This document shows, one piece after another, positions 5,657 to 42,430 of a DNA stretch of 44,777 nt (the first letter of the stretch is position 1; each line of letters starts with the position of its first letter). The DNA is taken from positions 1 through 44,777 of IMG/VR virus record IMGVR_UViG_3300031576_000104, one strand, 5' to 3'. Source of the stretch: a virus. Below the pieces are notes generated by a model that had not been told where the DNA came from, did not search any database, and was given only the letters and a program-made list of their open reading frames with translations. A program made the translations under genes and the position numbers.

Positions 5657-6115
5657 ATGCCGCGCATCTACACGGTCTACATGTCGAACGTGAACATCAC
5701 GCCGGCCAACGGCGTGCGGACGCTGGCCGAGTTCACGGCGCCCGGCACCAAGACGTGCGAGCTGCTCGCCGCGCTCGTGACCCAGCTCAACTCCGAGGTC
5801 TCAACCCAGGAGGTCCTGGAGATCGTGCGGAAGAGCGCCGCCGGCACGGGCACTGCCTTCACCGCGGTCGACTACGAGACGGGCAACACGTTCGGCGGCT
5901 CGGCGCGGACCAACATGACAGTCGAGGGCACGATCTCCGCGCTCCTCACGCCCTTCATGGGCTGGAACATCCTGAACGGGTTCCTGTGGGTGCCCAAGAC
6001 CGAGAAGGACCGCATCTTCGTGCCGGGCGCCGGCATCGTCGGCATCCGGGTCGCGCAGGCTCTGGAGGTCGCGCTCGACCTGTCGGCTGAGCTGGTGCTC
6101 GCGGAGATGGGATGA
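5657..6115 (+). CDS. Putative virion protein (152 aa)
   Basis: No family recognised with confidence. The sequence alternates beta-like stretches with Gly/Ser/Thr-rich turns and has a hydrophobic region at about 95-115 (ISALLTPFMGWNILNGFLWV). The GAGGAG overlapping the upstream stop probably serves as the ribosome binding site for ATG 5657. Its stop overlaps the next start (ATGA). A minor structural role is inferred from context. Confidence 0.6.
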   Translation: MPRIYTVYMSNVNITPANGVRTLAEFTAPGTKTCELLAALVTQLNSEVSTQEVLEIVRKSAAGTGTAFTAVDYETGNTFGGSARTNMTVEGTISALLTPFMGWNILNGFLWVPKTEKDRIFVPGAGIVGIRVAQALEVALDLSAELVLAEMG

Positions 6116-12350: not shown

Positions 12351-13670
12351 GTGGCGACGTTCGACACCGTAGCCGCGGACGCGATGCTCAAGGTGGTGAC
12401 CGACGGGGCGCTGTTCGATTCCGTCGTCACGCACTCGCGGGTGATCGACCTGTTCGAGGAAAACTCGAACGTGGTCGAGGGCCCACACGGGCGTTACGTC
12501 GAGCTGGCTCACATGTTCGGCTACAACGAGGCGGTGGGGGCGCGGTCGGAAAACGCCTTCCTGCCGGTGCCGGGCATCCCGACGTTCCAAAACGGTCGGG
12601 TGAAGCTGAAGAAAACCCTCGCGGTCGCGCAGATGACGCAGACCGTGATGAAGCAGGCGATGGCCGGCAAGGCCGCGTTCGCCGACTGGGCGGACGTCGA
12701 GCTGCGCCGGACGGAGCGGGCGCTCCGCGACAACCTGGATCGCCAGGCGATCGGCTTCGGCTCGGGTGCGGTGTGCCGGATCGACGGCGCGCCGACCACC
12801 GTGCTCATCCCGATCGACGCCCCCTACGGCCTGGCGAACGACACGAAGGGCTGGCTGCCCGGTCTCCGGCGCGGTCAGACGATCGTGTCGGGGCCCACGA
12901 TTGACGGCCTGAACCTGCGGGCGAACGGGCAGTCCGCGACGATCATCTCGGTCGACAAGGACGCGAACGGTGGCGGCGGCCAGCTCACGGTCGACGCCGT
13001 GCCCTCGGGCTGGGTCAACAACGACTTCCTCTTCTTCGGGGACGATCTCGGTAACTCGGCCGCGGAGAACGGGGTCGATGTCGAGATGCAGGGCCTGGAG
13101 GGGATGATCGACGACGGCGGGGTGCTGGTCGTGTTCCAGAACATCAACCGCGACAGCTTCCCGGAGTGGGAGGCGCAGCAGATCGACGCCTCGGCGGCGC
13201 CCTACTCGGCGCTGGCCAAGGACACGCTGTTCATGCAGATGAACGACGACGCCGTCGAGCAGGGCGGCTCGGACGGGCTCACGCACTTCCTGGTGACCCG
13301 TGCCGTGTTCCGCAACGTCTACGTGCAGCTCAAGGGCGACGGTGGATTCGGCGCCACGCAGCAGCGTGCGGGGATGGAGGCGGCGACCAAGGGCATCCGG
13401 GTCTGGATCGGCGATCAGCAGGTCGAGATTCGGGCGATGCCCAAGCTCTTCCCCGGCCGTGTGTTCGGGCTCGATCGCTCGACCCTGCGGCGCTACCACC
13501 TGGAGGGCTTCGAGTGGGACGACACGACGGGCGCGATCTTCAAGCAGGTGGCCGTCGGGTCGGGCATCAAGGACGCCTTCTACGCCTACGGGCGCGTGGT
13601 GATGGAGCTGGGCAACACCGATCCGCAGAAGAACGCGAAGTCGACGGGGCTCAGCGAGACGCAGGCGTAA
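12351..13670 (+). CDS. Major capsid protein (439 aa)
   Basis: This is the shell subunit. Length, a mixed alpha/beta sequence with a helical N-terminal arm, and a place directly after the scaffold fit a P22-type coat with HK97 fold. The start is GTG 12351 after CGGAGG. Two segments recur elsewhere in the genome: the first 15 residues (MATFDTVAADAMLKV) at 15212, and residues 47-57 (GRYVELAHMFG) in a minus-strand gene at 30312-30344. A GC palindrome that may terminate or attenuate follows. Confidence 0.88.
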   Translation: MATFDTVAADAMLKVVTDGALFDSVVTHSRVIDLFEENSNVVEGPHGRYVELAHMFGYNEAVGARSENAFLPVPGIPTFQNGRVKLKKTLAVAQMTQTVMKQAMAGKAAFADWADVELRRTERALRDNLDRQAIGFGSGAVCRIDGAPTTVLIPIDAPYGLANDTKGWLPGLRRGQTIVSGPTIDGLNLRANGQSATIISVDKDANGGGGQLTVDAVPSGWVNNDFLFFGDDLGNSAAENGVDVEMQGLEGMIDDGGVLVVFQNINRDSFPEWEAQQIDASAAPYSALAKDTLFMQMNDDAVEQGGSDGLTHFLVTRAVFRNVYVQLKGDGGFGATQQRAGMEAATKGIRVWIGDQQVEIRAMPKLFPGRVFGLDRSTLRRYHLEGFEWDDTTGAIFKQVAVGSGIKDAFYAYGRVVMELGNTDPQKNAKSTGLSETQA

Positions 13671-14061: not shown

Positions 14062-14133
14062 CGCGGGGTGGAGAAGCAGCATCTCGCCGGGCCCATAACC
14101 CGGAGATCGCGGGTGCAAGTCCCGCCCCCGCCA
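14062..14133 (+). tRNA. Initiator-type tRNA-Met (CAT anticodon)
   Basis: A cloverleaf folds: acceptor 14062-14068 with 14126-14132, D-stem GAGA/TCTC, anticodon stem CCGGG/CCCGG with CAT at 14094-14096, T-stem GCGGG/CCCGC and discriminator A14133. It carries the marks of bacterial initiator tRNAs: unpaired 1-72 (C x C), three G:C pairs in the anticodon stem, and A11:U24. Deviations: a 7-base D-loop without G18G19, C33 in place of U33, G at 55, and no encoded CCA. It may be functional, decayed or repurposed. The next ATG is only five bases downstream. Confidence 0.8.
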
Positions 14134-14137
14134 CTTG

Positions 14138-14743
14138 ATGGACGACGGCGGCTATCCGTCTGAGCTGCTCGGCTTCCTGCGAGGCCGGCTCCCCCCGCCC
14201 GAGCACGTGCTCCGGGGGCTGCGGGCCCTGAGCGCGCACTTCCGGGTCTCGTGGACGCCGGCCACAAAGCCGCGCGGGAAGAAGAAAGGCCGGCCGGCGC
14301 TGTGGTGGCTGCACGAGGTGCGGCCGAACGCGGGGCCAATCGACCGCGTGCGCCGCGAGGTGGGCGCGCGTAAGCGCGCCCAGATGGAGCGGTGGGCGGT
14401 CGCGGCGAAGCAGGACCGCGAGGCTGAGATGTGGCAGCGGGAAGAGCAGGCCGCGGGCTACTACGAGGTCGGGAGCTACGCCGAGGACTACTTCGGCACG
14501 CCCACGATGGTCGACGAGCTGCGCCGCGGCCAGGAGCTGTTCCGCCAGACTATGCGCCAGCTCGCGGTCGAGGCCAACCGGGACACCCAGGCGATCGAGG
14601 AGATCGTGCTGGAGGAGAAGGATAATCCCGAGTTCGCGGCCTGGATTCGGGATGTCGCCACAGACTTCTATCCGGCGGTCGCGGGGCGCCGCCAGGTCGG
14701 CTACGAGCCTCCAGCCCCCACGGGAGTCGTGAGCAATGGCTGA
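14138..14743 (+). CDS. Hypothetical protein (201 aa)
   Basis: No family recognised. The basic N-terminal half (KPRGKKKGRPALWWLHEVR at about 44-62) gives way to a long charged helical region (about 68-170), rich in Glu and Arg. The start is ATG 14138 (TTG 14135 also possible). It lacks a Shine-Dalgarno and begins just after the tRNA; if the tRNA 3' end were processed, the message would be nearly leaderless. It sits between coat and tail-adaptor genes, so a head-completion or internal-protein role is possible. Confidence 0.65.
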   Translation: MDDGGYPSELLGFLRGRLPPPEHVLRGLRALSAHFRVSWTPATKPRGKKKGRPALWWLHEVRPNAGPIDRVRREVGARKRAQMERWAVAAKQDREAEMWQREEQAAGYYEVGSYAEDYFGTPTMVDELRRGQELFRQTMRQLAVEANRDTQAIEEIVLEEKDNPEFAAWIRDVATDFYPAVAGRRQVGYEPPAPTGVVSNG

Positions 14744-21984: not shown

Positions 21985-23160
21985 ATGGGCGAACCGCTCG
22001 GATTCCGGGCGCCGGGGTTCGGGGTGCCACAGTTCAGGCAGCGGCGCCGCCCGGCCCTCGGCCGCCGCCTGCTCGACCTGGATGAGCCCGCCGCGCTGCC
22101 GCCCGTGCCTGAATTCGGCCAGGCCGCGGCCCCCGTTGCGGCCGGGTTCCCGTCCTTCGGCCAGTCCTTCCAGCCGGAGCCGCTCGGCCTCTCGCCCAAG
22201 CAGGCGATCAGCCAGGCCTCGGCCGCGGTGGAAGCCCCGGCCCGCGGACCGAACTTCGGCCAGCGGTTGCTCGCGGCGCTGCGCGATCTCGCGATCTCCG
22301 GCCAGGCGTTCCAATTCGAGCGCGGAGAGGACGTGCCGGGCGCGCTCCAGTTCGGTCAGGCGGCCCTGGCAGGGTTCGGCGGCATCGCGCGCGTGCGCGC
22401 GGAACGGGCCGACCTGGAGCGCGAGCGCCAAGTCGCGGAGACCGAGGCCGAGTACGAGCGCGGGCAACGCAAGTTCGAGGTCAGCCAGCGTCCGCTGCGC
22501 AGCCGCCTCCTGACCTCACAGGTGGCGGCCGCGGAGGACGTCGCGGCCACGCGCACGCGCCGCCAGGAGGCGACGGCCGCGGCGGCCGCGCGCCTGCGCG
22601 CCGATCCCCGCTACGCCGAGTTCCGCGACCTGCCCGACGACGAGCTGGTGCGGGCGGCGATGCAGGCGTCGCTCGCCACCCGGCGCCAGCGCGAAATCTC
22701 GCGGTTCCCGCGGCCCTCGACCGCGAGTCCGCTCGCGGGGCTCAACACCGCGATTGATGACGCCACGGCCGAGATCAACGACGCGCAGGAAGAGCTGCGG
22801 CGCGCGCAGCAGGACATCGGGCTCGGGCTCTCCAGCCAGTTCTACACGGCCGAGCAGCAGGCCGCGATCCAGCCCTACCTCGACGCGCTACAGGAGGCGC
22901 AGGAGTACCGGGACGGGCTCGTGCAGGAGCGCAATCGTCAAGGCGGCTTCCCGCGCGGGCCGGCCGCGGGCCGCCGCGGGGCCGGAGCGCCGGCCCCTGG
23001 TGGTGAACGCGAGCCCCTGGACGAGGAAGAGCTAACGATCGTCCAGGACGCGATCCGCGGCATGGAGCCCGCCGCGCAGGATGCCTACCTGCGGCGGCCG
23101 GAGTTCGGCTACACCGAGCAGGAGATTCAGCAGATCAAGGCCGCTCCCCCGAGGCGCTGA
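21985..23160 (+). CDS. Putative ejection/internal virion protein 2 (391 aa)
   Basis: Residues 1-110 are Phe/Gly/Pro/Gln-rich with repeated FGQ phrases (PEFGQ, SFGQS, FGQRL, FGQAAL). About 120-320 is long charged helix, probably coiled coil (ADLERERQVAETEAEYERGQ). The C-terminus is Gly/Pro-rich and acidic. CGGGAGG precedes ATG 21985. It overlaps the polyvalent-protein gene by one base. The middle position of a three-gene ejection set suggests a role like P22 gp20; this is inferred. Confidence 0.6.
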   Translation: MGEPLGFRAPGFGVPQFRQRRRPALGRRLLDLDEPAALPPVPEFGQAAAPVAAGFPSFGQSFQPEPLGLSPKQAISQASAAVEAPARGPNFGQRLLAALRDLAISGQAFQFERGEDVPGALQFGQAALAGFGGIARVRAERADLERERQVAETEAEYERGQRKFEVSQRPLRSRLLTSQVAAAEDVAATRTRRQEATAAAAARLRADPRYAEFRDLPDDELVRAAMQASLATRRQREISRFPRPSTASPLAGLNTAIDDATAEINDAQEELRRAQQDIGLGLSSQFYTAEQQAAIQPYLDALQEAQEYRDGLVQERNRQGGFPRGPAAGRRGAGAPAPGGEREPLDEEELTIVQDAIRGMEPAAQDAYLRRPEFGYTEQEIQQIKAAPPRR

Positions 23161-26100
23161 TGCCGAACGGCGATCAGGCGCCGCTCTCCCGCCAGGACCG
23201 GGTCGCCCGCCACCGGCGGATCGCGGCCGCGCGCGCGATCCTCACCGAGCGCGAGCGCACGCTCACCCAAGCTGGCGGCCGGGAGTTTGAGCGGGCGCGC
23301 GCGGCCTTCGGCGAGCCCCGCGCCCCGTTGCCCGCCCTCCCTGTGCCGACCGAGCGGCTCCAGATCGCCCCTGAAGCGATCGTCCAGCGGCCGAGTGCGC
23401 CGCCCGTGCCTGCGGGACTGCGCGAGCGCCGCTTCGCCGCCGCGCCACGGGAAGCCCCCGAGCTGCTCGGCCCCCCGAGTCCCGAAGAAGAGGCGGCGGC
23501 CCGCGTGCGGGTGGCCGAGATCGCGGAGGCCCGCGCGCGCGAACGGCGGTTCGGGCCGCTCGACCCCGCCTACCGCACCGCGCGTCGGATCGCGGGCGCG
23601 GCACTCGCGCGGGTCCCCGGTGGCGGGCCCGGTGGCCCGGCCGACGTCGGCCGGCGCCTCGTGGCAGGGACCGAGGAGGAAGAGGCTCAAGCGGCCGAGC
23701 TGGCGGCGACGCGCGGGATGGCCGAGAACCTGGCGCGCGGCCTGCCGTCCTTCGTGGCTGAGTTCGAGGCGGCGGCGGCCCTCCCGCTGGTGGGCTCCGT
23801 GATTCGGGCGGGCGGTGGGGCAGGGGTGCCCGCGGCGGTGACGCGCCGCGGTATCGCCGGACTCGCGCGTCCCCGCGCGCTGACGGCCTTGGGCCGCGCC
23901 GCCGTTCGCGAGGCCGGCGTCGAAGCCCGACGGTTCGGCACCTTCGAGGCGACGCGCACGGCCCTGGAGCAGCGGAGCCCCGAGGAGATCGCGCAGGCCG
24001 CGCTGACGGGCGCCGGGTTCGGCGCCCCGTTCGGGGTGATCCCGCCGATCGCGGCGCTCGGCCGCGCGGGCCGCGTCTCGGTTCACCGCGCCGCGCGCCG
24101 GCTTGCCCGGCCGTCGCTCTACCAGCGCACGCGCGAGCTGGGGCCAGCTCCCGTGCCGTTCGGGGAGCCCGAGCGGATTCGGGCGGCCCCCGTCGCGCGG
24201 CCCCCGCGCGAGATCACCCTCGCCCGGCCGACTTTCGAGCGGCGGATGACGGAGGCCGAGCGCGCAGAGTTCGCAGCCGCGGGCGCGGAGCGGCGGCTGC
24301 CGGAGCGGTTGCGCCTGCGACGGGCCGAGCCAGCCGTCGAGCCGTCAGTCGAGGCCGCCGCCCCGCCGGCCGCCGAAGTGCCGCCCGTGCGGCCGCCGCG
24401 GCCGCGGGTCCCGCGCCGCGCGCCCCGCGTCCCGCGCGCGCCGACGGTGCGTCCGCCCGAGGTCGCCGCACAGGCGGCGGCAGGCGCCGAAGCGTTCGCC
24501 CGTGGCGCCCCCCGCCGGGTTCCCGTGGAGTTGGCGGTCCGGCCCGAGCAAGCAGAAGCCTGGTACTCGGGCTGGGATCGAGCGAACCTGGCCGCCCCGG
24601 TGCCGGCCGAAGTGCGGCCGCCCGCGGCCCCACCCGCCGAAGCCCCCCGGCCCGGCGTGATCGAGCGCGTCACCGCACGCGACGGTGAGGAGTTCCGCCT
24701 GGAGTACCGGGGCCCGGAGATCGACCCGACGTCGGGCCGCCAGCTTGCTGGCCCCGGCTACGCCGTGACCTTCGTCGAACGCGGGGGCCAGGAGGGCGGC
24801 CGCCGCGGCATCGCCACTGAGGCCGAAGCGCGGGAGGTGCTCCAGGGCTTCGTCGCGCGGCGCGGTGGGGCTCGACTCCCGGAAGCGGCGGCCGCGCGGC
24901 CCGAGCTGCCGCCGCGGCGTCCAGACACGATGGTCGAGGCTGCGGCGCTCGGCGCCCCTACCGCGGGCCGGATGTCGCGGGCGGCGCGGAAGCGCGCGCA
25001 CGAGCGGTTGCGGGTTGAGCTGTTCGGGCCCGCGGGCCTGCCTGAGCCGACGGTGCCGCAGCCCTCTGAGGCTGTGGTGCTGCGCCGACGCGCGGCGGCG
25101 CTGCGGGAGCTGGCCGAGCGCGGCCAGAAGCCCCGTCTCTACCGCCGCGAGGCCGAGCGGCTCGAAGCCCAGGCCCGCGGTGAGCCGCTGCCGGTCGCAC
25201 GCCGCCGCCCCGCGGCCCCGGCGATTCCCGAAACGGCCGAGGAGCTGCACAACGAGGTCCTGCGGGCCTTCGGCGCCTACCAGCGGGCCCTCGAAACCGA
25301 GGAAGGCGCGAGTCTCCGGGCGACAATCGGAAACGCGCGCAGCTCACTCGCGCGGTTCCGGGAGCGTGGGGTCCCCGCCGATGACGCGGTGTTCCGTGAC
25401 CTGGAGCGGCTGACGGAGCGGGCCGAAACCCGACTTGGCGCGCCGGCTGCCCGTGTGCGCCGGCCGCGGGCGCCGCGGGCCGAGCGTGAAGCCTTGGCCG
25501 CCGCGGCCCAGGGCCGGCCGCCGGCCGCGCCGCCGCCGGTCGAGGCTGTGCCGGGCGCCCCGGCGCGCAATCCCAAGTACCGGAAGTTCGACGACGCCGC
25601 CCTGGAGACTCGCTGGGTCGAGCTGACCGATCGCATGTCCCGGCTCTCGGCCCAGGCGGGCGAGGTCGCGCAGTTCGCCCGCCAGCTCCCGGAGGGCGGG
25701 GTCATCACGGGCCAGGCCGTCAGTGGCCGCGCCGGCCGGGCGATGGGGGCGATCAAGGTCGCGGGCCGGCTGGCCGACGAGATCGACCTGGAGTTTCAGG
25801 CGCGCGGCATCGACTTGAACGCGGTCGTCGAACGCTACATGCGGCAGGGCGGGAGCATCTCCGAGCAGACGTTCGCCTACCAGCCGCGTCTGGTGCGCCA
25901 GCAGCTCGATCTCTTCGCCCGCCGGCCGGGGCTCGGCCGGCCGACGGAGCTGGAGCTGCGCGAGGCCGAAGAAGCCGAGATCGTCCGCCAGATCAAGGGC
26001 GCACCCCGGCCGGCCGTGCGCCGCCCGCGCGCGGCACCACCGGAAGCGGTGACCGGCCGTCTGTGGATCATGCGCGAGAATCGGGCGGGCCAGCGGTGGG

Positions 26101-29100
26101 TGGACATCCGCGACCAGCGGATCGCGCTCGGGACCCCAGAGGCCAGCGGCCAGGTCGCGCGGCTCCTGCAGTTCGCCCGCAACCCCAAGGTTGAGCAGTT
26201 CCACACGATCCTGTTGCGCGAGGGCCGGATCGTCTCGCACCACGCGGAGTCGTCGGGCGAGGTCAATACGTCGATGCTGTCCGATCGGTTCTACAGCAGC
26301 CTGGAGCGCCGCGCGAAGAAGCTCGGCGCCGACACGGTGATCCTCGGGCACAACCACCCGAGCGGGATCGCCCTGCGCTCCGACGACGATATTCGGGTCA
26401 CGCACGCGATCATCCAGCACCTGCGCGCTCGCGCGGTGCGCCGCGGCGAGACGCCACTGCGCGTCGATCGGCACATCATCATCGACGACCGGGAGTTTTC
26501 GCAACTCGTGCCCGTCGAGCGGTTCGAGGACCTGCCGGAGGCGCAACGGATCGGGCCGGGCCTCAAGCCCCAGTACGGGGGCCGGGTGCCGATCGAGGCG
26601 CAGTTTATGATCCGCACCGACCGCCTCCCGATGCCCGAGGTGCCCGAGTCGGTCTTGAACCTCGTGCGGCCGGACCTGCCGGTGATCGCGACGCCGGATG
26701 TGGCGGCCACCCTCCTGCGGCGCGCGGTCAGCGAGCAGGGCTCGCCGATCCAGGTAATGTACCTGGACAGCTCGGCCCGGCCGCTCGGGCTGGAGCCGCA
26801 CCACGCGAGCGCGTTCGAGACGATGCCCACGTGGGTCCGGGAGCGGACCCGCGGGCTCGGTGCTCGCTTCGTGATAATCGGCACCAACGACCGCGAGCTG
26901 TACGAGTCGATGGTCGAGATGCTTCGCAAGGCCCACGCCCCCTATATCGGCCGGCGCCCGTTGCCTGTCTGGGACGTGATCTACACGCCGGCCGGCGAGC
27001 AGGGCAGCGCCTTGAACCGCGGGCTGATCGAGGACCTGCGGGTGGTCGAGGAGCGGATGGCCGCCAAGGGCTTCGGGGTCGAGCCGGGCCGGATGGTGTT
27101 TGAGCGGCCGGTCCCGCCCTACGAGAAGGCCGTGCGCCAGCGGATCGGCCGCGCCGAAGAGGTAGCCCCTGAGCGCCTGAGCTTCCGGGCGCGCCGCGCG
27201 GTCGCCGATCTCTACCGCCGCGTCGTGCGCCGCACCTACCCGATCGAACGCGCGGCGGCGCAGCTCCGGGGCGAGGGGGCCAAGCTCTCCTTCGACGACG
27301 CGGGCAACGTCGCCGTGATGGCGTCGGGCTCCCCCGTGCGGGCCGAAGAGTTCCTCGAAGGCTCGCCGTTTCGGTGGACGCCCGAGGGCGAGATCACACG
27401 CACCGGGACGCCGGGCTACACGGCGATCGTCCAGGGGTCGCGCGACGTCGAGGCTCTGGACGCCTACGAGATTGCCCAGGCCGCGATCGAGCAGGCGGCG
27501 AAGCGCCCAAAGCTGGCGACCGGCGTGCCGCTGGAAGCCGCGCATCAGGTCGTTGCCAACGCGCCGCCTGAGATTCGCCGCGCCCACGAGCAGTCGGTCG
27601 CCTTCCGTCGGGACGTCGCCCGCTACTGGGCGGATGCTGGAGGCGTGGCCCCTGAGACGCTCCGCGCCTGGCAGGAGTTGCACGAGCACTACGTGCCGCT
27701 GCAGCGCATCTTCGGCGAGGGCGAGGCGGGGACAGGTACCGGCCGGCCGGGCCGGGTGCCGCAGCAGATCAAGCGCCGCGTCGGCTCCGAGCGCCGGATC
27801 ATCTCGCCCGTCGAAAGCACGATCGACCAGACTCGGCGGCTGATCCGCGCGGCCGACCTGAACCGTGTCGCCCTGCGGCTGATCGAGGCCGCCGAACGGG
27901 AGCCCGAGGCCGCCGTCGGCCTGGTCGAGCGCGTGGCGCGGCCGGCAGGCGCGCTCCGGGAGGTCGAGCAGCTCGTGGCCGCGGCGGCCGCGCGCGGCGT
28001 GACGTTGAAGCCCGAAGTTGCGCGCGACATCGTGGCCGCCATGAGCGAGCGCGGGCTGGGGATCACCGACGACGTGATCTCCGTCTGGCGGAACGGGAAG
28101 CGCGAGCACTGGCTCCTCGCGCCCGAGCTGGGCACGGCGCTCCGCTCGATGGCCCCCCAGCAGGCTAACCTCTGGGTCTCGCTCCTCTCGCTGCCGGCGC
28201 GCGGGCTCCGCACCGGCATCACGGCGGCACCGCGGTTCCCGATCTGGAACCTGATCCGAGACTCGTTCGACGCCACACTCCAGAGCCAGTACGGGTTCCG
28301 ACTCGGGATCGACAGCTTCCGGGGCTTCATGGAGTCGCTCAGGAAGGGGACCCGCTACCGCGAGTTCCGGGCGTCGGGCGCGGGCTTCGGCGGCGAGTTC
28401 TTCTCCGCCGCCGGCCGCGGCCAGGCCGAGGCCCTACGGCGCGTGACGGGCCGCGGCGCCGGGGTCTTGATGCATCCCCTGCAGGCGCTCAAGGCGTTCG
28501 GCCGGCCGTTCGAGGAAGCGGCGCGCGTGGGCGAGTTCATGCGCGCGCGCGAGAAGGGCGCGACCGTGTTCGAGGCGGGGCTCGCGGCGAAGCAGGTGAC
28601 GACCGACTTCCAGCAGGTCGGCGCTAACATGCAGGCGTTCAGCCAGATGACCGCCTTCTTGAACCCCGCGATCCAGTCGCTCGATCGCATGGTGCGAGTC
28701 ACGAAGGCCCACCCCGCGCGGGTGCTCGCGCTGGGCTTCAGCTCGATCTCGCTGCCGACGGCGATCCTCTGGGCCGCGAACCGTGGGGACGAGGAGATCG
28801 CCGAGCTGCGGAAGGGACCGGGCGGGCTGCTCTTCTGGTACGCCCGGCTGCCGAACGGCCAGCTTGTCCGCATCCCCAAGCCGTTTCTGTGGGGCCAGAT
28901 TTTCGGGACCGGCATGGAGGCCGCGCTCGACAGGGTGTTCGATCGTGACGCTGAGGCGGGTAATCGCTTCGCGACGGGCTTGCGCGAGCAGGCGTCCTCG
29001 AACGTCTTGCCGACGCTGCTCCAGACCTACGTCGGGCTCCAGACGAATCGGCATCCGATGTTCGGCACGCCGATCGTGCCCGAGGCGCTACGCGGGGTCG

Positions 29101-29723
29101 AGCCCGGCCTCCAAGCCGCGCCAGGGACGGGCGAGACGGCGCGCGCGATCGGGGCGGCGCTGGGCTTCAGCCCCGCGCGGCTGGAGTTCATCTTCAGCCA
29201 GGTCACGGGCACGCTCGGCCGCGATGCGCTCAAGGGCGTGGACGCGATCGTGCGGGAGGTCCAGGGTGAGGGTCCGGTCCCGCCCGCGCGGGGGCCGGTC
29301 GGGATTCCAGTCGTGGGCTCCTTCCTCGCGCAGTACCCGAGTGCCGGCGCCGCGTCGCTCCGCACGTTCTACGATCGGGCGGGGAAGGCCGAGGAGCTGG
29401 TGCAGACGCTGCGGCTGCGGCAGAACCGGGACCCCGCGTCAGTCGGCCCCTGGCTCCAGGGGCGCCAGGACGAGCTGGCGGTGGCGGGCCTCTACCGGAC
29501 GAGCCGCGAGCATCTGGGCGCGCTGCAGCGTCAGGTGGAGGTCGTGCGCCAGAGCCGCGGCCTCTCCGCCGACGAGAAGCGCCAGCGGATCGACGTCATC
29601 CTGCGGCGGCAGATCGCCGTCGCGCGCCAGATCAACCAAGCGGCGGACGAGATGCGCCGACGGCAGGGTGTGGTGCGTCGCGTCCGAGCTGCTCAACGGA
29701 CACGCACCGCGCCGCGAGAGTAG
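23160..29723 (+). CDS. Giant polyvalent ejected protein with two JAMM/RadC-like domains (2187 aa)
   Basis: Probably packaged and ejected with the DNA. Residues 1-900 are Ala/Arg/Pro-rich with long disordered parts. About 967-1115 is a RadC/JAB-like domain with an intact JAMM metal site: GHNHPSG at 1063-1069, then S1074 and D1077 (H-x-H-x7-S-x2-D). About 1165-1285 is a second, decayed copy with GTNDREL where the histidine motif should be. About 1375-1960 looks like the LPD38-type domain of phage polyvalent proteins (YVPLQR, then ITAAPRFPIWNLIRDSFDA). The C-terminus is charged helix. Confidence 0.75.
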   Translation: MPNGDQAPLSRQDRVARHRRIAAARAILTERERTLTQAGGREFERARAAFGEPRAPLPALPVPTERLQIAPEAIVQRPSAPPVPAGLRERRFAAAPREAPELLGPPSPEEEAAARVRVAEIAEARARERRFGPLDPAYRTARRIAGAALARVPGGGPGGPADVGRRLVAGTEEEEAQAAELAATRGMAENLARGLPSFVAEFEAAAALPLVGSVIRAGGGAGVPAAVTRRGIAGLARPRALTALGRAAVREAGVEARRFGTFEATRTALEQRSPEEIAQAALTGAGFGAPFGVIPPIAALGRAGRVSVHRAARRLARPSLYQRTRELGPAPVPFGEPERIRAAPVARPPREITLARPTFERRMTEAERAEFAAAGAERRLPERLRLRRAEPAVEPSVEAAAPPAAEVPPVRPPRPRVPRRAPRVPRAPTVRPPEVAAQAAAGAEAFARGAPRRVPVELAVRPEQAEAWYSGWDRANLAAPVPAEVRPPAAPPAEAPRPGVIERVTARDGEEFRLEYRGPEIDPTSGRQLAGPGYAVTFVERGGQEGGRRGIATEAEAREVLQGFVARRGGARLPEAAAARPELPPRRPDTMVEAAALGAPTAGRMSRAARKRAHERLRVELFGPAGLPEPTVPQPSEAVVLRRRAAALRELAERGQKPRLYRREAERLEAQARGEPLPVARRRPAAPAIPETAEELHNEVLRAFGAYQRALETEEGASLRATIGNARSSLARFRERGVPADDAVFRDLERLTERAETRLGAPAARVRRPRAPRAEREALAAAAQGRPPAAPPPVEAVPGAPARNPKYRKFDDAALETRWVELTDRMSRLSAQAGEVAQFARQLPEGGVITGQAVSGRAGRAMGAIKVAGRLADEIDLEFQARGIDLNAVVERYMRQGGSISEQTFAYQPRLVRQQLDLFARRPGLGRPTELELREAEEAEIVRQIKGAPRPAVRRPRAAPPEAVTGRLWIMRENRAGQRWVDIRDQRIALGTPEASGQVARLLQFARNPKVEQFHTILLREGRIVSHHAESSGEVNTSMLSDRFYSSLERRAKKLGADTVILGHNHPSGIALRSDDDIRVTHAIIQHLRARAVRRGETPLRVDRHIIIDDREFSQLVPVERFEDLPEAQRIGPGLKPQYGGRVPIEAQFMIRTDRLPMPEVPESVLNLVRPDLPVIATPDVAATLLRRAVSEQGSPIQVMYLDSSARPLGLEPHHASAFETMPTWVRERTRGLGARFVIIGTNDRELYESMVEMLRKAHAPYIGRRPLPVWDVIYTPAGEQGSALNRGLIEDLRVVEERMAAKGFGVEPGRMVFERPVPPYEKAVRQRIGRAEEVAPERLSFRARRAVADLYRRVVRRTYPIERAAAQLRGEGAKLSFDDAGNVAVMASGSPVRAEEFLEGSPFRWTPEGEITRTGTPGYTAIVQGSRDVEALDAYEIAQAAIEQAAKRPKLATGVPLEAAHQVVANAPPEIRRAHEQSVAFRRDVARYWADAGGVAPETLRAWQELHEHYVPLQRIFGEGEAGTGTGRPGRVPQQIKRRVGSERRIISPVESTIDQTRRLIRAADLNRVALRLIEAAEREPEAAVGLVERVARPAGALREVEQLVAAAAARGVTLKPEVARDIVAAMSERGLGITDDVISVWRNGKREHWLLAPELGTALRSMAPQQANLWVSLLSLPARGLRTGITAAPRFPIWNLIRDSFDATLQSQYGFRLGIDSFRGFMESLRKGTRYREFRASGAGFGGEFFSAAGRGQAEALRRVTGRGAGVLMHPLQALKAFGRPFEEAARVGEFMRAREKGATVFEAGLAAKQVTTDFQQVGANMQAFSQMTAFLNPAIQSLDRMVRVTKAHPARVLALGFSSISLPTAILWAANRGDEEIAELRKGPGGLLFWYARLPNGQLVRIPKPFLWGQIFGTGMEAALDRVFDRDAEAGNRFATGLREQASSNVLPTLLQTYVGLQTNRHPMFGTPIVPEALRGVEPGLQAAPGTGETARAIGAALGFSPARLEFIFSQVTGTLGRDALKGVDAIVREVQGEGPVPPARGPVGIPVVGSFLAQYPSAGAASLRTFYDRAGKAEELVQTLRLRQNRDPASVGPWLQGRQDELAVAGLYRTSREHLGALQRQVEVVRQSRGLSADEKRQRIDVILRRQIAVARQINQAADEMRRRQGVVRRVRAAQRTRTAPRE

Positions 29724-36909: not shown

Positions 36910-36991
36910 ATGGGGTCTCCAGGTGGTGACGGGTTGGTTTAGCTCGGTCAGTCGCGCCACGAGCCGGTCGATGTTCGGGTTGCCTCGTCAG

Positions 36992-37058
36992 GCGGCGGGC
37001 ACCACCCGCCGCGACCGGCGGCGTTTGAGGGCCTTTTTCGGCCCTCAAACGCCTCCGG
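36992..37058 (-). terminator. Two tandem hairpins after DUF932 gene
   Basis: The first hairpin pairs 36992-36999 with 37005-37012 (8 bp, GC). The second pairs 37020-37033 with 37040-37053: a perfect 14-bp stem (GGCGTTTGAGGGCC arm) and 6-base loop, extended by four more pairs at 37015-37018/37055-37058. They lie just past the DUF932 stop and before the next gene, 83 bases upstream of its ATG. Likely terminator/attenuator or mRNA stabiliser. Confidence 0.6.
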
Positions 37059-37065
37059 TTTCGGC

Positions 37066-38151
37066 TCAGAACGTGATCTTCAGGATGCGGCCCGCGCCGC
37101 GGTCGATCTCCGTGCGCTGGTCGGCGTAGGGGATCGTCTGCGAGAAGCGGGTCAGGCCCTGGACGAAGCCCCAGACGGAGTTCGGGCTCCCGTCCTCGGT
37201 CGGCACCACCGCGTCGTAGCCGGCCGCGAGCACCTTCCGCGGCAGCCCGATGCGCTTGATGCCGAAGAGCTTGTCGAGCACGGCGTCCTTGTCGCCCGCG
37301 ATCACGAGCTGCTGGGCGGTGCGGATGCGCGCCTCGTCCTCAGAGGCCGCGCCGTTGACGTAGCTCGTGGCCTGGGCGATGAAGTTCGCGAACCGGCCGC
37401 GGACCCGCTCGCCCCGGTGCGCGAGGCGCAGCTCGTCCATATCCTCGGCCTCCCAGATGATATGATTCCCGCACTGGAAGCGGTAGAGGAACCGCATGAT
37501 CGCCAGCGAGCAGTCGCCCACCTCGGAGTTGGTGACGATGAACCCGCGCTTGAGCGGGTACTCCTGGCCGGCCTCGGCGATGTCCACGTCCTGGTAGCAT
37601 AGGAACGCAAACATGTCGTGATCGGAGGCGTAGAGGTCCGGCGTGTTGGACGTGGCCACGCCGTCGAGCACCAGGTCGGGCCGCGGCAGCGACGGCTTCC
37701 AGCCCGCGGCTTCGAGGTCGAGCAGCCGGTCGCACACCTCGTAGTTCCAGATGCGTTCGTAGACGTCGCCCGTGACGGCGCGCGCGACGAGGTTCTCATT
37801 CGAGTGAAAGAGCACCTTCGCGGTCGTGCGATCGGTGCGCTTGGCGAGCCCGTAGTTCAGGTTCTGGGCCGCGAGCGTCGCGGGGAGCGAGCGCAGGTAG
37901 GGGGTGGGCGCGCCGGCCCGCTCGGTGAGCTGGCCGAAGGCCCAATGCGACACGACGGCCAAGCGGCCGGCCTTGCCCGAGAGCAGCAGGTCCTTCTCTG
38001 AGGCCTCGACCCGCAGATCGGCCCACGGCGTCTCGGCCTCGGCTGCGTGCTGTGCGTAGTCGAAGCACTGGTCCCGCATGGACTGGACCGACGGGAACCG
38101 CTCGTCGGCGGGCCGGGTGGCCCACTGGTGCGCTACGCGGAAGATGTTCAC
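37066..38151 (-). CDS. DUF932 family protein (361 aa)
   Basis: The protein matches the DUF932 family common in phages and plasmids, of unknown biochemical role (linked by context to DNA replication or host takeover). Landmarks include HWAFGQLTERAGAPTPYLRS (near residue 75), a central region with FLCYQDVDI and KRGFIVTNSEVG, and a conserved-looking FLYRFQCGNHIIW. The length is typical. GTG 38151 has AAGGAG about six bases upstream. The gene has its own promoter (38230) and ends in strong hairpins, so it is probably an abundant early product. Confidence 0.8.
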   Translation of the reverse strand: MNIFRVAHQWATRPADERFPSVQSMRDQCFDYAQHAAEAETPWADLRVEASEKDLLLSGKAGRLAVVSHWAFGQLTERAGAPTPYLRSLPATLAAQNLNYGLAKRTDRTTAKVLFHSNENLVARAVTGDVYERIWNYEVCDRLLDLEAAGWKPSLPRPDLVLDGVATSNTPDLYASDHDMFAFLCYQDVDIAEAGQEYPLKRGFIVTNSEVGDCSLAIMRFLYRFQCGNHIIWEAEDMDELRLAHRGERVRGRFANFIAQATSYVNGAASEDEARIRTAQQLVIAGDKDAVLDKLFGIKRIGLPRKVLAAGYDAVVPTEDGSPNSVWGFVQGLTRFSQTIPYADQRTEIDRGAGRILKITF

Positions 38152-38229
38152 GGGGGAACTCCTTGACTGGTGGGGTCCGACGGTCGGCCGGTCGGCCGGA
38201 CGGTGGAGCCCCGATGGTGCAACGCCCCC

Positions 38230-38259
38230 AAGATAGCTCGGGGGCGCTGCGCCTGTCAA
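38230..38259 (-). promoter_or_regulatory. Sigma-70-type promoter for DUF932 gene
   Basis: A perfect TTGACA (complement of 38254-38259), 18-bp spacer and TATCTT (complement of 38230-38235), with the phage-typical CCCCCGAGC before the -10. It is the strongest promoter visible. The expected start is near 38223, giving a leader of about 70 bases before GTG 38151. Confidence 0.75.
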
Positions 38260-41566: not shown

Positions 41567-41882
41567 GATCGGACGCGCGGAGGTCGACGAGCGGCCCACG
41601 ATCGCGAATCAGCAGGCGCGTCTGGACGGCCAGCTCGACCGGATGCGGTCGAGCGTCTGCGATGCGCTCGAAACGCTCTGCCAGATCGCGGGCGGCGCCC
41701 AGCCCGCGAATCCCAGCAAGGCCCCCAGCGAGACGGGCGATCACATCGCGGGCGCCCTGTGTGCGCTGAACGATCGGCTCGAAACGCAGCTCGATCTCGC
41801 GGTCACGTCGATCGCCCGACTCCAGGTCTTGTTCGGCGCCGTGCCGGCGCCGACGACCCGGCCAGAGCTGCGGCGCGCATGA
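41553..41882 (+). CDS. Hypothetical helical protein (109 aa)
   Basis: Mostly helical with heptad-like spacing (LDGQLDRMRSSVCDALETLC, about 24-43; DRLETQLDLAVTSIARLQVL). Overlaps the upstream gene by 14 bases and the metallopeptidase by four. Function unknown. Confidence 0.6.
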   Translation: MLEREIGRAEVDERPTIANQQARLDGQLDRMRSSVCDALETLCQIAGGAQPANPSKAPSETGDHIAGALCALNDRLETQLDLAVTSIARLQVLFGAVPAPTTRPELRRA

Positions 41883-42430
41883 GCCTCCTCAAGGGCGTGA
41901 CCCTACCGGGTCCGCTAGAGCCGCTGCGCCCCAAGCTAGAGCGGGCCTTCGACGTCGCCGTGTTCGCGCTCTGGCCCGAGGGCGTCGATCTCCAGGAGGC
42001 CGAGCAGCCCGCGGCGCTTGGGCGCGTGCTGATCGGCGCCCTGCACACCCACCTGGCTTCGGCGAAGATCGCCTATCTCTTCAAGGCCAAGATGGCCAAG
42101 CGCGGCCAGACCAAGCTCGGAGTCGCGAGCCACGCCACGGGCAAGCTCGCGTTTCTCTCCGGGATGGACTTCGTGATCGAGTTCAATCACGCGACCTGGC
42201 GGACGCTCACGCCCCAGGCCCGGCTCGCCCTGGTCGATCACGAGTTGACACACTGCGTCACCGACGAGGACGGCGAGTATACGCTGCGACTGCACGACGT
42301 CGAAGAGTTCGGCTCGATCATCCGGCGCTGGGGGCTGTGGACGCCGGACCTGGTGGGCTTCGGGCACGCGGTCCAGGCCGCCGAGCAGCGGGACTTCTTC
42401 GAGGTGCCGGAGCCGGCGCCCGCCGCATGA
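41879..42430 (+). CDS. Putative phage metallopeptidase (183 aa)
   Basis: HELTH at 121-125 (in LVDHELTHCV) is the HExxH zinc site of metallopeptidases, with a following Glu-rich stretch (VEEFGSIIRRWG) that could give a third ligand. The overall layout matches the phage metallopeptidase family known from phage accessory regions. Substrate unknown; it may process a virion or host protein. ATGA junctions both sides. Confidence 0.75.
   Translation: MSLLKGVTLPGPLEPLRPKLERAFDVAVFALWPEGVDLQEAEQPAALGRVLIGALHTHLASAKIAYLFKAKMAKRGQTKLGVASHATGKLAFLSGMDFVIEFNHATWRTLTPQARLALVDHELTHCVTDEDGEYTLRLHDVEEFGSIIRRWGLWTPDLVGFGHAVQAAEQRDFFEVPEPAPAA

Follow-up and report, generated by a model that had tools for sequence, protein, structure and literature searches.

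An initiator-type tRNA with a matched A18–G55 elbow among the structural genes of a phage

Bacterial initiator tRNAs of the E. coli tRNA-fMet type combine a CAU anticodon with the absence of a strong 1–72 pair, an A11:U24 pair, G:C pairs in the anticodon stem and A73; they have G18 and Psi55 at the elbow, U33, A72 and an encoded CCA. Psi55 has been described as universally conserved, or as the most universally conserved modified base of tRNA (PMC4810234, PMC7912444). Initiator-type tRNA-Met genes are also carried by phages, among them the Erdmann group of mycobacteriophages, Pseudomonas phages D3 and Haboob, Gordonia phage GodonK and Stenotrophomonas phage QDWS359. A different elbow is known from the laboratory. 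When the Steinberg laboratory selected suppressor tRNAs in vivo by a combinatorial approach (J Mol Biol 2004), position 18 was reportedly G if position 55 was U, and A if position 55 was G. In the 'specific purine trap' of the same laboratory, purine 18 is said to lie between bases 57 and 58, paired with base 55.

The tRNA considered here is encoded in a stretch of viral DNA of 44,777 nucleotides, the whole of which is referred to as the window. It shares with the tRNA-fMet type the five identity features given above, but has A18–G55 rather than G18–Psi55, C33 rather than U33, C72 rather than A72, and no encoded CCA. The phage tRNAs named above differ from it in being G18/U55, in the ones examined, and in lying mostly in tRNA clusters, although that of Haboob shares C33. 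Phage CBW1004C-Prop1 is the only named record found with A18/G55, and the tRNA is unannotated there. The window tRNA obeys the same 18/55 rule as the purine-trap suppressors, which are laboratory-selected elongators whereas it is a natural initiator. The A18–G55 elbow, with G19–C56 kept and with C33 in some cases, is likewise found in initiators of Patescibacteria (Giovannonibacteria, Taylorbacteria, Zambryskibacteria, Kaiserbacteria and others); these are chromosomal, however, and many have a variable loop of four bases as opposed to five. Of the openly available papers searched, none names the A18–G55 combination or deals with Patescibacteria initiator tRNAs; earlier reports are possible. 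We consider it likely that the window encodes a functional, phage-borne initiator tRNA of bacterial type with an alternative elbow, carried together with a small ORF as a cargo cassette in a late structural operon (Table 1).

Table 1. Coordinates of the tRNA, its parts and the neighbouring genes in the window
Feature	Position	Strand	Basis or remark
Initiator-type tRNA-Met(CAT)	14062..14133	+	ARAGORN; Rfam RF00005; stem pairing
Acceptor stem	14062-14068/14126-14132	+	C1xC72 mismatch, six other pairs formed
D-loop A14 G15 C16 A18 G19 C20 A21	14075..14081	+	A18 at 14078, G19 at 14079
Anticodon loop CCCAUAA	14092..14098	+	C33 at 14093, CAU anticodon at 14094-14096
T-loop U54 G55 C56 A57 A58 G59 U60 (UGCAAGU)	14114..14120	+	G55 at 14115, presumed partner of A18
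Major capsid protein gene	12351..13670	+	phrog_14242, E 3.9e-15; tblastn
Small ORF, 87 aa	13790..14053	+	Stop codon lies 8 bases upstream of the tRNA
Structural-module gene, 201 aa	14138..14743	+	ATG four bases after the tRNA

ARAGORN makes a single tRNA call in the window, a tRNA-Met(CAT) at 14062-14134, and Rfam scores the tRNA at 51 bits with RF00005 against a cut-off of 29 (E 3.7e-8 over the whole window). With a score so far above chance, this is a genuine tRNA. It has the cloverleaf fold with its CAU anticodon, and every stem pair forms except the 1–72 mismatch, where the strong Watson–Crick pair is absent as in initiators. The D stem (GAGA/UCUC) contains A11:U24, the anticodon stem (CCGGG/CCCGG) supplies the three G:C pairs G29G30G31:C39C40C41, U8 is present, the variable loop is AGAUC and the T-stem has five pairs. 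A73, at 14133, is followed by CTTG. The preliminary description had identified an initiator-type tRNA from the 1–72 mismatch, A11:U24 and the three G:C pairs, and had remarked on C33, G55 and the missing CCA; all of this is borne out. It had also stated that the D-loop lacks G18G19, which is right for the first base and wrong for the second: the seven bases AGCAGCA equal in length the canonical AGCGGCA and AGTGGCA and are accordingly read with A18 and G19, so that only G18 has changed. The G18–U55 (Psi55) contact is thus replaced by A18 and G55, whilst the remainder of the canonical elbow (G19–C56, U54–A58 and G15–C48) is kept. Single-strand folding was discarded as support for the tRNA, since the cloverleaf is not favoured: at -32.7 kcal/mol it is not the minimum-energy fold (-33.9 kcal/mol), its ensemble frequency is 0.9% (E. 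coli initiator, 25%), and folding is not clearly better than that of shuffled sequences (z -1.65).

The preliminary description treated the two departures at the elbow as separate items, a view that does not survive a survey of viral tRNAs. IMG/VR was scanned with one template, a match being taken as valid when all stems form. The complete scan for A18/G55 initiators yielded 40 valid copies (30 unique), and the complete scans for the mixed combinations yielded none, from 30 raw matches for A18/U55 and 15 for G18/G55; valid canonical G18/U55 initiators numbered at least 84 unique sequences from the first 117 new loci. The association of the two positions reaches 3e-28 in Fisher's exact test, a strength which is overstated because related sequences were counted as independent; the 33 viral A18/G55 sequences fall into 31 clusters at 90% identity. 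When the T-loop was left free and A18 and C33 were named, 15 stretches were returned, six of them already seen, and all nine new ones have G55. Elongators behave in the same way: the 13 viral and four cellular tRNAs that were classed by script as elongators with G55 all have A18 (one of the 13, L170, being a mis-framed initiator), as against 500 viral elongators with G18/U55. Three apparent exceptions in a wider tally of initiators were dismissed by eye, two of them as mis-framed T-loops (L486, and L300, which runs into a contig end) and L161 as a match that is not a tRNA. Among the valid tRNAs of these surveys, then, A18 occurs with G55 and not with U55, as in the purine trap, and these counts indicate that G18 to A18 and U55 to G55 is one coordinated change.

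This result weighs on the possibility that the window tRNA is the decaying remnant of a captured initiator, no longer in use. Early decay could account for C33 and for the lack of CCA, and both the poor cloverleaf frequency and the absence of the tRNA in relatives (see below) would agree with it. Decay would not, however, produce matched pairs, and the elbow changes are matched here, as the wider tally shows them to be in 40 unique initiators of viruses and 21 of cells; the stems, too, are intact apart from the initiator-type mismatch. We regard decay as improbable and retain the reading as a functional initiator.

The other features of the window tRNA recur in the class to varying degrees. 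G19–C56, U54–A58 and G15–C48 are kept in 33 of 33 viral members, the scan patterns having prescribed U54, C56, A58, G19 and, of G15–C48, only G15. None of the 33 has a G-C or C-G pair at 1–72, and seven have GGG/CCC at 29–31:39–41; GAG was required by the collection scans, so the frequency of A11:U24 in the class is not informative. C33 is present in 8 of 33 A18/G55 as against 6 of 130 G18/U55 viral initiators (p 0.0016) and is therefore not private to the window tRNA. In stretches of at least 4 kb the class tRNA is mostly the sole tRNA (33 of 41). Larger sets were also observed: phage contig L157 (IMGVR_UViG_3300050821_004749) packs 29 tRNAs plus a tmRNA into some 9 kb, with A18/G55 in the initiator only. 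Elongators with A18/G55 occur in phages L120, L147 and L487, the first two having several of differing specificity (Phe, Ile, Pro, Val, Thr; Gly, Met, Thr, His, Leu). A different departure from U55 is seen in phage L085 (IMGVR_UViG_3300031718_000001), in which 12 tRNAs bear C55 (TCCRA) with G18 kept. As to initiator-type tRNAs in general, the preliminary description had called them rare in phages. They are not: 167 GenBank phage records, 125 of them from mycobacteriophages, match the window tRNA, the ones examined being initiator-type and mostly in tRNA clusters, and at least 120 IMG/VR stretches match an initiator 5' end, although these may include host genes at prophage edges.

In cellular genomes, 15 of the 17 valid A18/G55 tRNAs among the matches listed belong to Patescibacteria. 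One of the other two is in a prophage stretch of Mesorhizobium, alongside a CII-like activator and members of further phage families, and there the host's own two initiators are canonical whilst the prophage copy is A18/G55. The other lies in a Chloroflexi MAG (L334), where an array of 17 tRNAs (19-2106) beside an ABC transporter gene contains several with A18/G55, canonical initiators being found elsewhere in the genome. Strict patterns applied to 145 Patescibacteria genomes found A18/G55 initiators in 8, G18/U55 in 25 and neither in the rest, with no A18/U55 initiator in any of the 145. In ten Patescibacteria genomes with an A18/G55 initiator no canonical initiator was found, from which it follows that the A18/G55 form probably works as the sole one. 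In three Patescibacteria genomes the elongators are G18/U55 almost throughout, a tRNA-Tyr being among the few exceptions. Loss of TruB, the Psi55 enzyme, is not required as a cause: of 12 Patescibacteria genomes with the A18/G55 form, 8 have a TruB domain, and those in which none was found may be incomplete.

G55 cannot become Psi55 and A18 cannot become Gm18, and C33 alters the anticodon loop, where VapC-type nucleases cut. These properties would suit a tRNA that draws off modifying enzymes or tRNA-targeting nucleases as a decoy or sponge, or that is put to some use outside translation, rather than an initiator. Phage tRNAs with changes in the anticodon loop have been proposed to escape such nucleases, yet phages generally avoid tRNA-fMet where the target of the nuclease is the anticodon itself (PMC10264068). 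The elbow is, moreover, compatible with initiation, as in what is apparently the only initiator of some Patescibacteria, and a non-initiator role appears very unlikely.

A tree of initiator tRNAs was built from 64 columns, leaving out the D-loop and position 55. Neighbours in this tree differ at positions 18 and 55 together, and a minimum of 6 switches from one state to the other is needed to explain its well-supported branches; simple parsimony gives 34 changes, on a poorly resolved tree. The nearest row to the window tRNA is a canonical G18/U55 initiator from Patescibacteria (L411, 92% over the 64 columns), so that both positions appear to have switched at once between close relatives. Placement of a donor by the tree was abandoned, 64 columns being too few.

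The tRNA is tightly packed between its neighbours. The capsid gene has tblastn matches to proteins of Arthrobacter, Microbacterium and Cellulosimicrobium phages, mostly annotated as capsid, at 23-28% identity. Close relatives that might have named the host were not found; this distant similarity to actinobacterial phages, together with a window G+C of 70.6%, nevertheless makes Actinomycetota the probable host. The small ORF has no match in Pfam, PHROG or tblastn searches, nor in the four capsid relatives (L002-L005). The gene downstream of the tRNA is, on comparative grounds, a real one: in L002 (35% identity, E 7e-31) and in L004 (30%, E 1e-18) a homologue is the gene next to follow the capsid gene. 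When the downstream ORF itself was used as a synteny query, no relative was found. Elsewhere in the window, a Hammerhead type II ribozyme-like element on the minus strand (36974-37066) has the core CTGACGA, GAAA and GTC and scores 33.4 bits where the cut-off is 37 (E 0.0043, whole-Rfam scan); it begins at the stop codon of a minus-strand phrog_1362 ORF (37066-38259). A 2187-aa polyvalent protein (23160-29723) combines a RadC-like JAB domain (998-1092) with an LPD38 domain (1892-2036), and 41759-42430 encodes a PhageMetallopep domain (PF18894), the PHROGs match being labelled transposase.

The preliminary description had proposed a search for a syntenic copy in relatives, and none came to light: the four capsid relatives have no tRNA near the capsid gene. 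L004 has a tRNA-Ile(UAU) elsewhere, and no initiator tRNA was seen on the L002-L005 contigs, some of which are fragments. The same description held that a pseudogene-like score without conservation in relatives would speak against the tRNA. The second half of this is partly realised in the four nearest relatives, but the score is good and a class of intact phage tRNAs exists. As the relatives lack the tRNA and, in L002 and L004, the gene after the capsid gene is homologous to 14138-14743, the small ORF and the tRNA would most simply be an insertion separating these two genes, made here or in an ancestor, and the tRNA would be dispensable, the four nearest capsid relatives doing without it.

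The junction downstream of the tRNA is as first described, without a Shine–Dalgarno sequence and with the ATG (14138-14140) starting at the fifth base after A73; an in-frame TTG lies ahead of it at 14135. Several other genes of the window, those at 5657, 11175, 12351, 15474 and 21985 among them, have GGAGG-type sites. A cut after A73 would leave a nearly leaderless mRNA beginning CUUGAUG, which is possibly compatible with initiation of the leaderless type. Leaderless translation is common in Actinomycetota, the probable host phylum. The anatomy thus agrees with the message processing suggested in the preliminary description, and the tRNA might then be chiefly a message-processing element, a cutting site in the late transcript which gives the downstream gene its nearly leaderless mRNA (CUUG before AUG, or C before UUG), all the more since the folded tRNA would cover the usual upstream footprint of the ribosome. 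This is unlikely to be its main use, however. The L002 homologue is also without a Shine–Dalgarno sequence, its GTG abutting the capsid stop codon with no tRNA between them, whilst in L004 the next gene follows a short gap and has a GGGAGG site. Nor is an abutting start codon a trait of the class, since the distance from a viral A18/G55 initiator to the next ORF start ranges from 0 to 295 bases. Finally, a mere cutting site would need neither the initiator marks nor the matched 18/55 pair.

The natural tRNAs surveyed here obey the purine-trap rule for positions 18 and 55, and for this reason the window tRNA is read as a working initiator with an alternative but equivalent elbow. We infer from the co-occurrence of the two bases, and from the selection experiments, that A18 would pair with G55 and lie where G18 otherwise does, between bases 57 and 58, the L shape presumably surviving the absence of Psi55 and Gm18. 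Excision from the late transcript would fall to RNase P and RNase Z (or exonucleases) of the host, and CCA addition, charging with Met and formylation to other host enzymes, after which the tRNA would start translation on late mRNA. The phage would probably benefit from a larger supply of start tRNA in late infection, and this supply may be poorly recognised by host enzymes that target tRNAs; the CUUGAUG message is a possible by-product.

More tentatively, A18–G55 may represent a second natural form of the elbow in place of G18–Psi55, arising as a recurrent double change, concentrated in phage and some Patescibacteria initiators, and adaptive through escape from modification of the T- and D-loops by the host or from its surveillance; we hold this broader proposal to be possible rather than probable. 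Natural tRNAs that have dropped Psi55 by changing both partners would offer a direct test of the roles of Psi55, Gm18 and TruB, and the A18/G55 set would also test what lets initiators accept the swap and in what respects the tRNAs of phages depart from those of their hosts. For annotation, tRNA searches and pseudogene calls which expect G18 and U55 would undervalue real tRNAs.
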